From: Candidatus Latescibacterota bacterium
GTDB lineage: Bacteria; Krumholzibacteriota; Krumholzibacteriia; WVZY01
Length of the DNA stretch: 64,000 bases
Direction of reading: 5' to 3'
Assembly: GCA_011772205.1 (NCBI GenBank)
Contig: WVZY01000010.1
Span: forward strand, 62,001-126,000
Position numbers and translations under genes: made by a program. Under the pieces are notes generated by a model. It was not told where the DNA came from, did not search any database, and was given only the letters and a program-made list of their open reading frames with translations. Within the stretch, counting starts at the first letter, position 1, and each line of letters starts with the position of its first letter. Shown here piece by piece: positions 12,831 to 18,120 of this stretch.

Positions 12831-14480
12831 CTAGCCTTCGGCGGACAAATTGTACTTCCTGATTTTGTTGTGAAGAACCTGACGGCTGATTCCCAGAACC
12901 TGTGCTGCCTTGGTGACATTCCATGAGTTTGTCATCAGCGTTTTGCGGATAAACTGTGATTCATAAGCGTCGAGGATCTCCTTGAGGGAGGATTTTTCCA
13001 AGACGGCCTTACCGGCTCCTTCTATCCCCAGCAGCTTTTCGACCTCCGGTGCATCGATGATTTTCCCCTCCTCGTGAAGGGCGACAATTCGTTCCATCAG
13101 GTTTTCGAGCACGCGCACGTTTCCCGGCCAATTATAATTGAGAAGCCTTTTCTTCGCCTCGCTAGTGAGAATGGGCCTCTTTTTATCGTTCAGCTTCGAA
13201 TATCTTTCGAGAAAATGCTCGGAAAGCAGGATGATATCCGCGGGACGCTCCCTCAACGGAGGCATGCGTATCGGTACGACATTCAGCCGGTAGTACACGT
13301 CATCCCGGAACTTTCCCTCTCTCACTTCTTTCATAAGATTTTTGTTCGTTGCAGCTATGATTCGAACATCGACGTTTATTGTGGCGTCCGACCCAATCCT
13401 TTGGATTTCCCCGTCCTGGAGGACCCTCAGGAGTTTCGCCTGGACGCTCCTCGGAATTTCCGCAACCTCGTCCAGGAATATCGTGCCGCCGTTTGCAGTT
13501 TCGAACGCCCCTTTGCGATCCGCATCCGCCCCTGTAAAGCTGCCTTTCAAATGGCCGAATAGTGCGCTTTCGAGAAGCGATTCCGGGATTGCAGCGCAGT
13601 TGATTGGATAGAATACTTTATCCTTCCTGTGACTATTATGATGGATCGCACGCGCGACGAGCTCCTTTCCCGTTCCTGATTCTCCCTGAATCAGCACATT
13701 GCTGGAGACGGGCGCGATTCTCTTTATTGTGTCAATGACTTCTTGCAGTGCCTTGCTCCGCCCGATGATGCCCGAAAAATCGAACTGCCCGGCGAGCTGT
13801 TTCTTGAGATCCTGAACCGAGTGCTCGAGCTCACCGTGCTTCTTTGCATTCTCGATCGCGACGGCAGCCTGGGCGCCGAAGGATCTTATGATCGACAAAT
13901 CGGTGTCGGTCAATCGCTGGGAAATCCGGTTGCTGTCTACATAGATGACGCCGACGAGCCTGTCCTCGAATTTCAAGGGAAGACCATAGGCGGCTTTGAT
14001 TTCGAGATCCACGATGCTCTCTTGATCCCTGTAAGTCTCGTGGTTCTGAACGCTATCGACGACGACGGGTTCGCCCGTGTCCGCTGTCTCTCTCGCTATG
14101 GTTTGGCTTATTTCAAAGCACTTTTCATCGAGATCCTTTTCATCCTTCGATCTAGCGATTGCGAAGGTCAGATCCCCCTTTTCATTACGCAGCATGAGGA
14201 AGCCCCTATCACAGTCGGTAACGCGAATAACCGAGTCGACAATCTTTCTAAGGAGTTCTTGGAGATTGAGTGTGGAGTTGATCGAAGCGCTGATGTGGAG
14301 GAGATCCTGGAAGGTGGAATTGGCCCCGCCGGGTGTTACAATCCTGCCCTTGGAATCTTCCTGAGCTCCCGCGGAATCCCGCCATTTTTTCAGCTCGCCG
14401 CCTATTTCAGCGAAATGGTCCAGTGGGCCCGGTTTTCGACGCTTCCGTTCCCCTTGTTTCTTATTGGATTTGTCATCCAT
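12831..14480 (-). CDS. Sigma-54-dependent activator with GAF sensor domain and Fis-type HTH
   Basis: A 549-residue enhancer-binding protein. Residues about 60-212 are a GAF domain. A short coiled linker follows, then the AAA+ domain (about 235-465) with Walker A GESGTGKE at 266-273 and Walker B GGTIFLDEVAE at 331-341. The C-terminus (about 505-545) is a Fis-like helix-turn-helix, AAQVLGISRQVLHNKIRKY. The sigma-54 contact loop reads GSFTGA at 313-318 instead of the usual GAFTGA. The basic N-terminal 50 residues are atypical. There is no receiver domain, so the signal is probably a small ligand or redox state. Its likely target is the sigma-54 promoter at 14844-14858. AGGAGA precedes the ATG. 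Confidence 0.93.
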   Translation of the reverse strand: MDDKSNKKQGERKRRKPGPLDHFAEIGGELKKWRDSAGAQEDSKGRIVTPGGANSTFQDLLHISASINSTLNLQELLRKIVDSVIRVTDCDRGFLMLRNEKGDLTFAIARSKDEKDLDEKCFEISQTIARETADTGEPVVVDSVQNHETYRDQESIVDLEIKAAYGLPLKFEDRLVGVIYVDSNRISQRLTDTDLSIIRSFGAQAAVAIENAKKHGELEHSVQDLKKQLAGQFDFSGIIGRSKALQEVIDTIKRIAPVSSNVLIQGESGTGKELVARAIHHNSHRKDKVFYPINCAAIPESLLESALFGHLKGSFTGADADRKGAFETANGGTIFLDEVAEIPRSVQAKLLRVLQDGEIQRIGSDATINVDVRIIAATNKNLMKEVREGKFRDDVYYRLNVVPIRMPPLRERPADIILLSEHFLERYSKLNDKKRPILTSEAKKRLLNYNWPGNVRVLENLMERIVALHEEGKIIDAPEVEKLLGIEGAGKAVLEKSSLKEILDAYESQFIRKTLMTNSWNVTKAAQVLGISRQVLHNKIRKYNLSAEG

Positions 14481-14603: not shown

Positions 14604-14643
14604 ATAAAAAAAAGAGAGAGCCCACCGCTATCGGCAGGCTCTC
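14604..14643 (-). terminator. Factor-independent terminator of the 29-residue peptide gene
   Basis: On the minus strand GAGAGCC (43-37 of 146xx) pairs with GGCTCTC (22-16), with an inner CCG/CGG pairing around a CTAT-type loop. A run of Ts follows at 14613-14607. The U-tract lies on the minus side only, so it ends the short transcript from 14748 and is placed before the regulator gene, insulating it. Confidence 0.75.
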
Positions 14644-14658
14644 CCCGACCACTGCATC

Positions 14659-14748
14659 TTACCACACGCTCTTTCCCCAAGTACTCTTACCCAGAATCGC
14701 AAGTATGGTGAAGATGATTCCCAAGTTGCTCAGCACTAAGTAACGCAT
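14659..14748 (-). CDS. 29-residue single-helix membrane peptide in a sigma-54 transcription unit
   Basis: An ATG at 14748 follows a strong GGAGGT with a six-base gap, and the frame runs 29 codons to TAA. The peptide begins MRYLVLSNLG. It has one hydrophobic helix (about residues 4-19) and a short tail with two Lys and two Trp residues, GKSTWGKSVW. Upstream lies a perfect -24/-12 promoter; downstream lies a terminator 16 bases after the stop. The unit therefore codes for nothing else. I recognise no family. Roles for such peptides elsewhere include regulating a membrane enzyme or transporter or signalling membrane stress; which applies here is unknown. The start, ribosome site, terminator and promoter all agree, which makes a chance frame unlikely. 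Confidence 0.7.
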   Translation of the reverse strand: MRYLVLSNLGIIFTILAILGKSTWGKSVW

Positions 14749-14843
14749 TTCGAAACCTCCGAATTAATTGCCGTTTCACCGATGTATCAGAATCGCTTTC
14801 CCTCTCCTCTCGTTCGCTTCGTCGCTCTCGACTCCCCAGAAAG

Positions 14844-14858
14844 GCAAGGGACGTGCCA
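14844..14858 (-). promoter_or_regulatory. Sigma-54 (-24/-12) promoter
   Basis: Minus strand TGGCACGTCCCTTGC matches the full consensus TGGCACG-N4-TTGC. Initiation would fall near 14832, giving an 84-base leader to the ATG at 14748 and a transcript of about 230 bases ending at the terminator. I found no other match of this quality in the window. Confidence 0.8.
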
Positions 14859-14963
14859 TTGTTTCCAATCACGCCCAACGCTTACTAATTGCATCTATTT
14901 CAATAAGTTAATTGCCCATATCATCCTGTCGTTCCTCAATGGATCCCATGATGCCCCAAAAAG

Positions 14964-14981
14964 TGTAAAGAAATACTTACA
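14964..14981. promoter_or_regulatory. Candidate enhancer (UAS) for the sigma-54 activator
   Basis: TGTAA-N8-TTACA, a perfect 5-bp-arm dyad 106 bases upstream of the -24 element, at a distance typical for enhancer-binding proteins with Fis-type helix-turn-helix domains. A weaker related dyad, TGT-N11-ACA, lies at 15007-15023. Binding by the adjacent regulator is inferred from position only. Confidence 0.45.
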
Positions 14982-15262
14982 TCCTTCAGCTCAGCGAATC
15001 TGTTATTGTATTGAATATAAACAAGATAAGCGATTGTCAGGAGATTATTGCAGAGTGTCAACCGATCATGACAGTGCCGTCCGCATGCCGACGGATGATC
15101 CCTCAGATTGTTGAAAGAATTTGTCTTTTTTAACTCGAGCGACTACCCTCACAAAATCGGATCTACAATCCTCCCGATTCAGTAGCCAGGGCTCGCTCCC
15201 CGCCGGGCGTCTCATTCTTCATGGAGCGCAGACGAAAGCGCCACAAGGAGGTTCCAGCCGTC

Positions 15263-16603
15263 ATGAAGTACGCCGGAATGAATGCAATCGCTTGTCTCAT
15301 AGCCCTTTGCGCCTCCGCCGGCCCAGCGTTGGCTCGGGATATATTTCCATATCCAATAGAAACGAGAGTCCTCCCCAACGGGCTGAAAGTCGTCATGGTC
15401 CCTTTCGATAGTCCTGGAATCGTAGCCTATTACTCCGTTGTCAGGGCCGGCTCGAGGAACGAGGTCGAACCGGGGCTGTCCGGATTTGCCCACTTTTTCG
15501 AGCACATGATGTTTCGGGGAACGGAAAGGTACTCCACCGACGACTACAACAAGCTCTTCAAAGAACTCGGAAGCGATGCCAATGCCTTTACTACCGACGA
15601 CTACACCTGCTACGAGGCGATTCTGGGGAATGAGGGACTCGAAAAGGTGATCGAGGCTGAATCCGACAGGTTCATGAACTTGAAATATTCGGTCTCCGAT
15701 TTCCAGCAGGAATCCAGGGCGGTGCTCGGGGAATATTATAAAAACTACTCGCGGCCGAACAGCAAGCTGTACGAGAAGCTAAGGGACACCGCTTTCACAT
15801 CTCACACTTACAAGCACACCACGATGGGCTTCCTGAAAGATATTGAAGACATGCCCAACCAGTATGATTACAGCTTGAAGTTTTTCGATCGGTTCTACCA
15901 ACCCGGAAACGTCGTGGTTTTGATCGTAGGCGATTTTGACCCCGATCGAGTGATGGAGCTAATAGAAAAATACTACGGCAAATGGGAGGCCAAAACGTAC
16001 GACCTCCTGGTTCCTGTTGAACCCGAACAAACCTCTAAACGGACGGCGCATATCGATTGGGAGAATCCGACGCTACCCTATCTCGCCATTGCGTTTCACA
16101 CGCCGGCATTCAGCACGAAAAACACGGATTCGGCGGGTCTGGATATCCTCTCGGAGCTCATTTTTGGACGCAACAGCCCTCTTTACCAGAAGCTCGTTAT
16201 CGAGGACCAAAGTGCGGAGTCTATTCGTTGCTCCATACCAGATAAAAGAGATCCTGGCTTGTTCACGATCATCAGCCGTGTCAAAAGCGACGATTTGGTG
16301 GAAGAGGTGAAAAACGAGATTTACGAAGCAATCGCCGAAGCGCGCGAAAAACCTGTCGATCCCAAAAAGCTGAAAGCGATCAAGTCGAGAATCCGCTACT
16401 CGTTTGCTATGAGACTCGATACGGCTGGCTCCATTGCTCGCAGCCTCGCCCATTATCTGAACCTCACCGGCGATCCGAACTCATTGAACGAAATCTACAA
16501 GCGATACGGCGAGGTGAGCCCTGGAGACCTGCAAAGACTCGCTGAGCGCTACCTCGTGAAGCACAACTGTACCGAGGTGACGCTCATAGGAGTGAAGAAT
16601 TGA
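15263..16603 (+). CDS. M16 zinc peptidase, catalytic subunit
   Basis: A 446-residue exported peptidase. The start at 15263 is chosen because AAGGAGG lies 11 bases upstream and the protein then opens with a signal peptide (MKYAGMNAIACLIALCASAGPALA); the frame itself extends 14 codons further. The inverted zinc motif HFFEH is at residues 77-81, with the third ligand Glu in the EAESDR region near 150, so the site is complete. The C-terminal half carries the second M16 fold with YRxxxP-type residues replaced. It pairs with the next gene, which lacks the zinc site, as in bacterial M16 heterodimers. It probably degrades peptides in the periplasm or at the outer membrane. Confidence 0.93.
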   Translation: MKYAGMNAIACLIALCASAGPALARDIFPYPIETRVLPNGLKVVMVPFDSPGIVAYYSVVRAGSRNEVEPGLSGFAHFFEHMMFRGTERYSTDDYNKLFKELGSDANAFTTDDYTCYEAILGNEGLEKVIEAESDRFMNLKYSVSDFQQESRAVLGEYYKNYSRPNSKLYEKLRDTAFTSHTYKHTTMGFLKDIEDMPNQYDYSLKFFDRFYQPGNVVVLIVGDFDPDRVMELIEKYYGKWEAKTYDLLVPVEPEQTSKRTAHIDWENPTLPYLAIAFHTPAFSTKNTDSAGLDILSELIFGRNSPLYQKLVIEDQSAESIRCSIPDKRDPGLFTIISRVKSDDLVEEVKNEIYEAIAEAREKPVDPKKLKAIKSRIRYSFAMRLDTAGSIARSLAHYLNLTGDPNSLNEIYKRYGEVSPGDLQRLAERYLVKHNCTEVTLIGVKN

Positions 16604-18120
16604 TGAAAACAAATCACAAATCGCTTATACTCACTCTCATGCTGTCAGTTCTCATTTTCCCACTTTCATTACCTTCCTCATCTCTTGCCGGTGAGATCCC
16701 AGTGGTTCTCCTCCCTGTCGAAAACTCTCCGCTTGTCACTTACCGGATCCAGTTCCGCGTGGGCTCCATTGATGATCCAGACGGAAAGAAGGGGCTCGCA
16801 ATGCTGACTGCCACACTCCTCACCGAAGGCGGCACGCAGAAGAGGTCGTACGATGAAATCATCGAATACCTCTACCCGATGGCTGCGAGAATCCAATCGC
16901 AAGTAGAAAAAGAAGTCACCACAATTATTGCAACCACACATAGAGACAACCTCAACAAAGTCTATTCCCTCCTCATGGAAATGCTTCTCGAACCGGGCTT
17001 CAGAGAAGAAGACTTCGAGAGGATTCGAACGAACCTCATCAATTATCTAGCAAAGCAGCTTCGAGGAAACGACGATGAAAACCTTGCAAAGGAAGCTTTG
17101 AACGTTTTCATGTATGCAGGGCACCCCTACGGAACTCCGAATCAAGGCCTGGTATCACATCTTGAGGGACTTACTCTAAAAGACGTCGAAACCCACTATA
17201 AGAAGTATTTCACCAAGGGGACCGTTACCGTCGGTATCGCAGGAGCTGACACTCCAAAGCTCGCAGAACGAGCCCTCAGAGATCTTGGAAGGCTTAAAGA
17301 CGGACAATCCAAGAGAGAGCCGCTTCCCGAACCTTCGCCAATAAATGGCATCGAGATCCTTGCCGTCGAGAAGGAGTGCAGATCCACAGCCATATCCATC
17401 GGTTATCCAATAAACGTAACTCGAACGGATCCAGACTTCTATGCTCTTCTCATTGCGAACTCTTATCTCGGAGAACATCGGACGTTCAACGGGGTCCTCA
17501 TGATCAGGATGCGCCAGGTTAGAGGACTCAACTACGGTGACTATTCGTACATCGAAAACTTTATCCAGGAAGGGCGGAGCACCTTTCCTCTGGCTAACAT
17601 TCCCAGGCGACAGCAATTTTTTAGCATTTGGATTCGGCCGGTACTGCACAAGAACAGGCACTTCTCGCTCCGATTGGCAATCTGGGAACTCGAGAAGTTC
17701 GTAAAAAATGGTCTGAGCCGGGATGATTTCGAAGCCACGAAAAAGTTTCTCATCAACTACAGCAAACTTTGGGCGCAAAATCAGAGCCGCAGGCTCGGCT
17801 ATTTGTTGGATTCGAAATTCTACGGGACAGATGACTTCCTGAAAACGCTTCCTGAGAAGCTCCAAGACGTCACATTGGAGCAGGTGAATGCGGCTATTAA
17901 ACGCCATCTCAACTGCCAAAACCTGAGGGTGGCTGTTGTCACCAAAGGCGCAGAGGAGTTTTTGCAGGATCTCATTTCGAACAAGCGCTCCCCAATCGTC
18001 TACCAAGCTGAGGGCATACCGGAAGATGTGCTGGCAGAAGATAAGAAAATCGGAGTGTTCGAGCTCTCGATCAACAGAGACAAGTCTCGGGTTGCAGCTG
18101 CAGCGGAGCTGTTCGAATAA
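16603..18120 (+). CDS. M16 peptidase-like protein, non-catalytic subunit
   Basis: A 505-residue exported partner of the preceding enzyme. The ATG at 16603 shares one base with the upstream stop (TGATG). After a signal peptide ending near SSSLAG, the segment that should hold HxxEH reads AMLTATLLTEGG at residues 66-77, so both zinc-binding His residues are missing. The substrate-binding C-domain is kept: RGLNYGDYSYIENF, RRQQFFSIWIRPV. In characterised M16B pairs the subunit with the zinc motif cuts and the other supplies Arg/Tyr substrate contacts. That division fits here and is inferred from sequence alone. Confidence 0.9.
   Translation: MKTNHKSLILTLMLSVLIFPLSLPSSSLAGEIPVVLLPVENSPLVTYRIQFRVGSIDDPDGKKGLAMLTATLLTEGGTQKRSYDEIIEYLYPMAARIQSQVEKEVTTIIATTHRDNLNKVYSLLMEMLLEPGFREEDFERIRTNLINYLAKQLRGNDDENLAKEALNVFMYAGHPYGTPNQGLVSHLEGLTLKDVETHYKKYFTKGTVTVGIAGADTPKLAERALRDLGRLKDGQSKREPLPEPSPINGIEILAVEKECRSTAISIGYPINVTRTDPDFYALLIANSYLGEHRTFNGVLMIRMRQVRGLNYGDYSYIENFIQEGRSTFPLANIPRRQQFFSIWIRPVLHKNRHFSLRLAIWELEKFVKNGLSRDDFEATKKFLINYSKLWAQNQSRRLGYLLDSKFYGTDDFLKTLPEKLQDVTLEQVNAAIKRHLNCQNLRVAVVTKGAEEFLQDLISNKRSPIVYQAEGIPEDVLAEDKKIGVFELSINRDKSRVAAAAELFE

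Follow-up and report, generated by a model that had tools for sequence, protein, structure and literature searches.

What does a bacterial transcription unit produce when it carries the full control apparatus of a sigma-54 promoter but its only open reading frame (ORF) has 29 codons? We address this question in a genome of the class Krumholzibacteriia, using a 64,000-nucleotide stretch of DNA (the window) in which such a unit lies on the minus strand at 14604-14981. The unit is monocistronic, encodes the peptide MRYLVLSNLGIIFTILAILGKSTWGKSVW, and would give a transcript of about 230 bases. A preliminary description had claimed here a promoter of the form TGGCACG-N4-TTGC (14858-14844), a strong ribosome site, a 29-codon frame, a hairpin with a T-run, a TGTAA-N8-TTACA dyad upstream of the promoter (14981-14964), and an adjacent GAF-type sigma-54 activator. 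All of these are present, the activator being confirmed by Pfam matches to GAF (3.5e-17), Sigma54_activat (7.6e-73), and HTH_8 (1.7e-9). Absent from that description was a second dyad, TGTCA-N8-TGACA (15073-15056), whose position is conserved in relatives. The features are as follows.

15056..15073, minus strand: distal enhancer dyad TGTCATGATCGGTTGACA, TGTCA-N8-TGACA, centred 206 nt upstream of the -24 box
14964..14981, minus strand: proximal enhancer dyad TGTAAGTATTTCTTTACA, TGTAA-N8-TTACA, centred 114 nt upstream of the -24 box and matching 11/12 consensus positions
14844..14858, minus strand: sigma-54 -24/-12 promoter TGGCACGTCCCTTGC, TGGCACG-TCCC-TTGC, from sequence and from such a box before homologous ORFs
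14749..14832, minus strand: predicted 5' untranslated region, with a start near 14832, from sequence
14756..14760, minus strand: GGAGG ribosome site, from sequence
14659..14748, minus strand: 29-codon ORF MRYLVLSNLGIIFTILAILGKSTWGKSVW, ATG at 14748 and stop ending at 14659, a hydrophobic segment plus two GK(S/A)xW repeats
14604..14646, minus strand: intrinsic terminator, hairpin GGGGAGAGCCTGC/GTGGGCTCTCTCT plus T run, from sequence; such a hairpin and T run also lie behind most homologous ORFs
12831..14480, minus strand: 549-aa GAF/AAA+ (GSFTGA loop)/Fis-type HTH sigma-54 activator, presumed regulator of the unit, from domain matches

The regulator gene begins 178 bases past the stop of the peptide ORF. 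Divergent to the peptide unit are two adjacent M16-type peptidase genes (window 15221-18120), and an M16 gene 73% identical is found in the same place in a sister-family genome, G006 (L047 2-694).

Promoter, enhancers, and regulator

On its own, the promoter is weak, non-significant evidence. Pattern matching across the window genome (4.1 Mb) gives 6 perfect matches to the promoter pattern, and with at most 1 mismatch it gives 90 versus 75 for a reversed control. What lifts the promoter above chance is its conservation in homologous units. A -24/-12 box lies before 27 of the 29 homologous peptide ORFs found first, 83-114 nt ahead and further in one copy, and the distance from promoter to ATG is 57-98 nt in most relatives. 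The -24 GG and -12 GC are correctly spaced and kept in the homologues, enhancer sites lie upstream at a conserved distance, and the window genome contains a single rpoN, all of which are expected of a sigma-54 unit.

The enhancers were scored as TGTAAA-N6-TTTACA (12 consensus positions) upstream of each promoter at 29 loci. The best dyad scores 10-12 of 12 at 28 of these, and shuffled sequence reaches a maximum of 8; exceptions among the scored loci are L088, with an uncertain promoter call, and L071, with unknown bases in the promoter region. Most copies in families f1 and f2 have dyads at 114-117 and about 197-209 nt, the distal one being found 197-209 nt upstream in 5/6 other scorable copies from the family and order of the window genome, while most copies in families f4 and f8 have them at 125-128 plus 189-193 or 211 nt. 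That TGTAA-N8-TTACA recurs at set spacings, mostly as a pair of dyads, argues strongly that it is a genuine enhancer. Scanning the class for the dyad together with the box returns one match in the window genome, the peptide unit. A looser version of the pattern gives 6 matches there versus 5 in the control, so a few further targets are possible in this genome.

In at least 10 relatives the dyad and a sigma-54 box also stand before the regulator gene itself, or before a unit of a HATPase kinase gene and the regulator gene. This ties the regulator to the dyad, and autoregulation is the simplest reading. The kinase gene is found ahead of the regulator in one unit in some f4 and f8 genomes, and downstream of the regulator in these families there is often a gene of the adenosine-specific kinase family (PF04008) or of the histone-deacetylase family (L036-L046, L144-L148). 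Leaders upstream of the regulator in L041, L150, and L038 have a common GAGAGTTAGATTCT element.

A further target appears in three f4 genomes, G040, G008, and G042 (and in G041 by pattern), where the dyad lies 113 bases before a perfect sigma-54 box followed by a gene for an MglA/Arf-like GTPase (L125, L126, L140). The orthologous GTPase gene of the window genome (G000:C8:218495-219236) has a sigma-54 box, TGGCACATTCTTTGC, but lacks the dyad. The preliminary description had proposed that the tiny peptide (or a regulatory RNA of about 230 bases) is the only product of this module. Its claim of a peptide product holds, but relatives add the regulator gene to the circuit and a few of them the MglA-like GTPase gene. 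Since the GTPase gene carries the dyad in some relatives, the peptide is better regarded as the shared output than as the sole one in every lineage.

The regulator falls below the cut-offs of the NCBIfam equivalogs for NifA (402.4 of 528.85 bits) and NorR (381.9 of 476 bits), and its closest solved structure by sequence is NifA (9qq6, E 4e-89). In the orthologues read, the loop is GAFTGA or GSFTGA, with a single GAFSGA, and the recognition helix, (S/T)RQ(Q/H/V)LHN, hardly varies.

Conservation and coding potential of the peptide

Homologous units were found in 27 of 80 genomes of the class, all within four families. A peptide profile search recovered 26 of these and the enhancer-promoter pattern the 27th, G031; a phylum-level search gave the identical 80 genomes. 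Nearly all of the units lie behind a -24/-12 box, with strong ribosome sites and, in most, a terminator. The peptides are 21-41 residues long (25-41 aa in the profile set) and follow one plan, a short hydrophobic stretch and then one to three GK(S/A)xW repeats. The consensus is about MKYIILSNLGLIxTLLxLFGKSVWGKSVW in f1 and f2 and MLFFSNIALIVALMIAGKSVWGKSVW in f4 and f8. Two tandem copies of the unit are found in G004 and G003.

It had been suggested that the block of promoter, peptide, and terminator should recur beside orthologues of the regulator, and it does so in the same and the sister family, where the unit lies upstream of the regulator orthologue in four other family genomes and one sister-family genome. 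In the two other families, f4 and f8, the unit is found elsewhere in the genome, unlinked to the regulator. There a UbiA-type prenyltransferase gene often follows it closely and faces a gene of the LOG family (L094-L121), with synteny across genera. An operon with this downstream prenyltransferase gene was rejected, as a terminator intervenes and the link is absent in the family of the window genome.

Peptide and regulator tend to occur together. Orthologues of the regulator (E <= 1e-100) are found in the same four families, with one weaker match in a fifth, and co-occurrence gives a Fisher p of 8e-9 (the G031 peptide not yet included), a value inflated by shared ancestry. Six genomes had a regulator match without a peptide profile match. 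One of these matches, in G012, is a weaker relative from another family (39% identity). Loss of the peptide where the regulator is kept had been named as a result that would speak against the module. This is not the case in G031, which has a diverged 21-aa peptide, and the peptide was undetected in G035, G045, G048, and G038, all of them drafts. The converse, a peptide without a full regulator, occurs in the drafts G033, G041, G043, G044, G046, and G050, with a partial regulator at a contig edge in G033.

Outside the phylum, we scanned DNA from one genome per species (84,980 species) for the two-repeat motif. The matches in other phyla are unrelated or overlapping frames and were rejected as evidence of spread, and viral contigs gave no match; since two repeats are required, single-repeat or diverged copies elsewhere would escape this search.

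An important question is whether the unit acts through its peptide or its RNA, for which the preliminary description had proposed Ka/Ks and a search for frameshifts. The dN/dS ratio is 0.087, 0.105, and 0.116 in the three alignable groups, favouring peptide over RNA. Differences per site at codon positions 1/2/3 are 0.26/0.11/0.49 in f4 and f8, where the third-position share was reached by 0/20,000 column shuffles, and 0.30/0.12/0.56 in f1. No frameshift was found in the conserved copies. One relative has a degenerate second copy (G002, L033 around 1161), the peptide MNYLIVSHAPLVVTIRSGLGKERVDAIA, which is apparently decaying. This pattern of substitution indicates that the peptide ORF is under purifying selection, and a chance ORF is ruled out by its presence in 27 genomes together with a dN/dS of about 0.1.

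A regulatory RNA with an incidental ORF, similar to GlmY, would fit a transcript of about 230 bases, a typical sRNA size, and the layout resembles glmY-glrKR/qseEGF down to the type of enhancer motif. Nevertheless, the low dN/dS and the third-position variation argue against it, as does a leader of variable length (57-98 nt) that has no conserved structure among the homologues. The consensus fold of the homologues retains little past the terminator stem, the window transcript is no more stably folded than shuffled versions (z -0.46), and Rfam gives this transcript no match, GlmY-type small RNAs included. We therefore take the product to be the peptide, given coding selection and the lack of conserved RNA structure beyond the terminator, and consider an RNA function very unlikely.

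Possible function of the peptide

We propose that the unit belongs to a dedicated sigma-54 circuit for responding to a stimulus, with a tiny membrane peptide as the shared product, and put the probability of this reading at about two in three. With its GAF domain the adjoining activator would sense a signal in the cytoplasm; it would then bind the two predicted sites 114 and 206 bases upstream, and open the sigma-54 promoter, leading to a monocistronic mRNA of about 230 bases and from it the 29-residue peptide. The hydrophobic half would place the peptide in the inner membrane, and the GK(S/A)xW tail, probably cytoplasmic, would be the working part, binding a partner on the surface of the membrane, either a membrane protein or, as feedback, the regulator, and adjusting the activity of that partner. 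Knowledge of these families suggests both activation by the regulator, from its protein class (loop and recognition helix) and the enhancer geometry, and membrane insertion, from a hydrophobic stretch of 15-19 residues. AlphaFold predicts a helix over residues 3-32 of a 41-aa homologue with modest confidence, and with so short a hydrophobic stretch a membrane-spanning state is plausible but uncertain. In nearly all copies the tail has more charge than the N side, which under the positive-inside rule speaks for a tail in the cytoplasm, an orientation that we propose less firmly than activation or insertion.

The best hint to the working part comes from G031. The enhancer-promoter pattern there leads to a 21-aa peptide, MLIVPAILIVIALVVDGKSVW, whose profile score was only marginal and whose unit has the dyads, the box, a ribosome site, and a terminator. 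The hydrophobic half of this peptide shows no sequence relation to that of the others, and just GKSVW is retained. Since GKSVW was kept while the helix was rewritten, the tail is marked as the part that may carry a specific function, with the remainder a generic hydrophobic anchor.

The peptide matches no known family, including the known small-protein families. Pfam gave no match among 25 peptide members and PADLOC none for the peptide, and NCBIfam gave weak hits, to CcmC and to an RND suffix domain (E 0.006), which fall far short of the cut-off and were rejected as effects of composition. A full-text literature search of partial coverage gave nothing relevant for GKSVW and nothing for the phylum and sigma-54 together.

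How such a peptide could act allows several readings. Insertion itself might lower the membrane potential and slow metabolism, as for YohP or TisB. Size, a single hydrophobic helix, and cationic ends are all in keeping with a depolarising or stress peptide, the tandem duplications suggest that dosage matters, and there is a precedent in the 27-aa YohP, which dissipates the membrane potential and brings about metabolic silencing (PMC12719787). Such a peptide, however, would need no tail motif conserved across families while the helix changes, and shallow inspection revealed no antitoxin element, so we regard this as unlikely. Slightly less likely still is that the tail is read by the activator itself, through the GAF domain or the N-terminus, closing a loop of sigma-54 autoinduction or membrane-state sensing. 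No peptide-run circuit of either kind has, to our knowledge, been described for sigma-54 activators.

The loop could also run through a pro-pheromone, in which the hydrophobic part is a leader and the released GK(S/A)xW tail activates the GAF regulator directly or after re-import, as in the autoinducing Rgg/SHP loop. A short hydrophobic peptide adjoining its own activator, the variable number of pentapeptide copies, and the apparent autoregulation of the regulator in f4 and f8 would all suit this. Pheromones diversify, though, and this tail is nearly invariant across families; moreover, there is no conserved signal-peptidase site, no exporter is conserved next to the unit, and the regulator is of the GAF/AAA+/Fis type rather than an Rgg, which makes the idea improbable. 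The WGK motif in copies with two GK(S/A)xW repeats raises the thought of a RiPP precursor with cross-links like those of WGK or KxxxW peptides, such Lys-Trp links being described in streptococci. However, the 80 proteins that neighbour the unit at 15 loci include no conserved radical SAM maturase, and spore-photoproduct-lyase-type proteins are found at just three loci; for want of a conserved adjoining maturase, a RiPP precursor was rejected as scarcely credible. Ahead of depolarisation and the pheromone loop we place binding of the tail to a partner at the membrane, a tentative preference at somewhat below even odds.

Comparison with known systems

A complete signal-controlled switch for one tiny, probably membrane-bound peptide points to an undescribed membrane signal response. 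Enhancer control that usually serves operons or small RNAs here serves a single tiny peptide, from a family without known relatives that several families of an uncultured phylum have retained. This control offers a direct handle on function, as promoter logic, peptide, and tail motif are separately testable. ORFs of 21-41 codons are ignored by gene finders, and this peptide was recognisable only via its promoter and conservation. Scanning for pairs of enhancer and sigma-54 promoter without an annotated gene is thus a practical route to hidden small proteins, and it recovered the G031 copy.

We know of no sigma-54 layout of the glmY type with a peptide product. The layout as such is not unprecedented, contrary to the preliminary description, which knew of no described system like it: glmY beside glrR/qseF is similar, with TGTC-N10-GACA enhancer sites and a small RNA product (PMC8745638, PMC4987338). 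Like the unit described here, glmY-glrKR (qseEGF) of the Enterobacteriaceae is a stand-alone small sigma-54 unit adjoining its activator gene, and its sites have the same form as our distal dyad. It differs in its RNA product and in that GlrR is a two-component response regulator, in contrast to the GAF sensor here. The regulator shares its GAF, AAA+, and Fis HTH architecture with NifA, NorR, and FhlA; it is set apart from NifA and NorR by its scores below their curated cut-offs and by its target, a peptide gene.

The peptide itself resembles YohP, MgrB, and AcrZ in being short, hydrophobic, without a catalytic domain, and expected in the inner membrane. It differs from them in the repeated GK(S/A)xW tail and the dedicated sigma-54 enhancer control, and no sequence relation to them was found. 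Rgg/SHP shares with our unit a tiny hydrophobic peptide gene adjoining its own activator, but the activator class and promoter type are different here and the tail is nearly invariant across families. The peptides of YohP and Rgg/SHP are functional analogues for comparison, not relatives.
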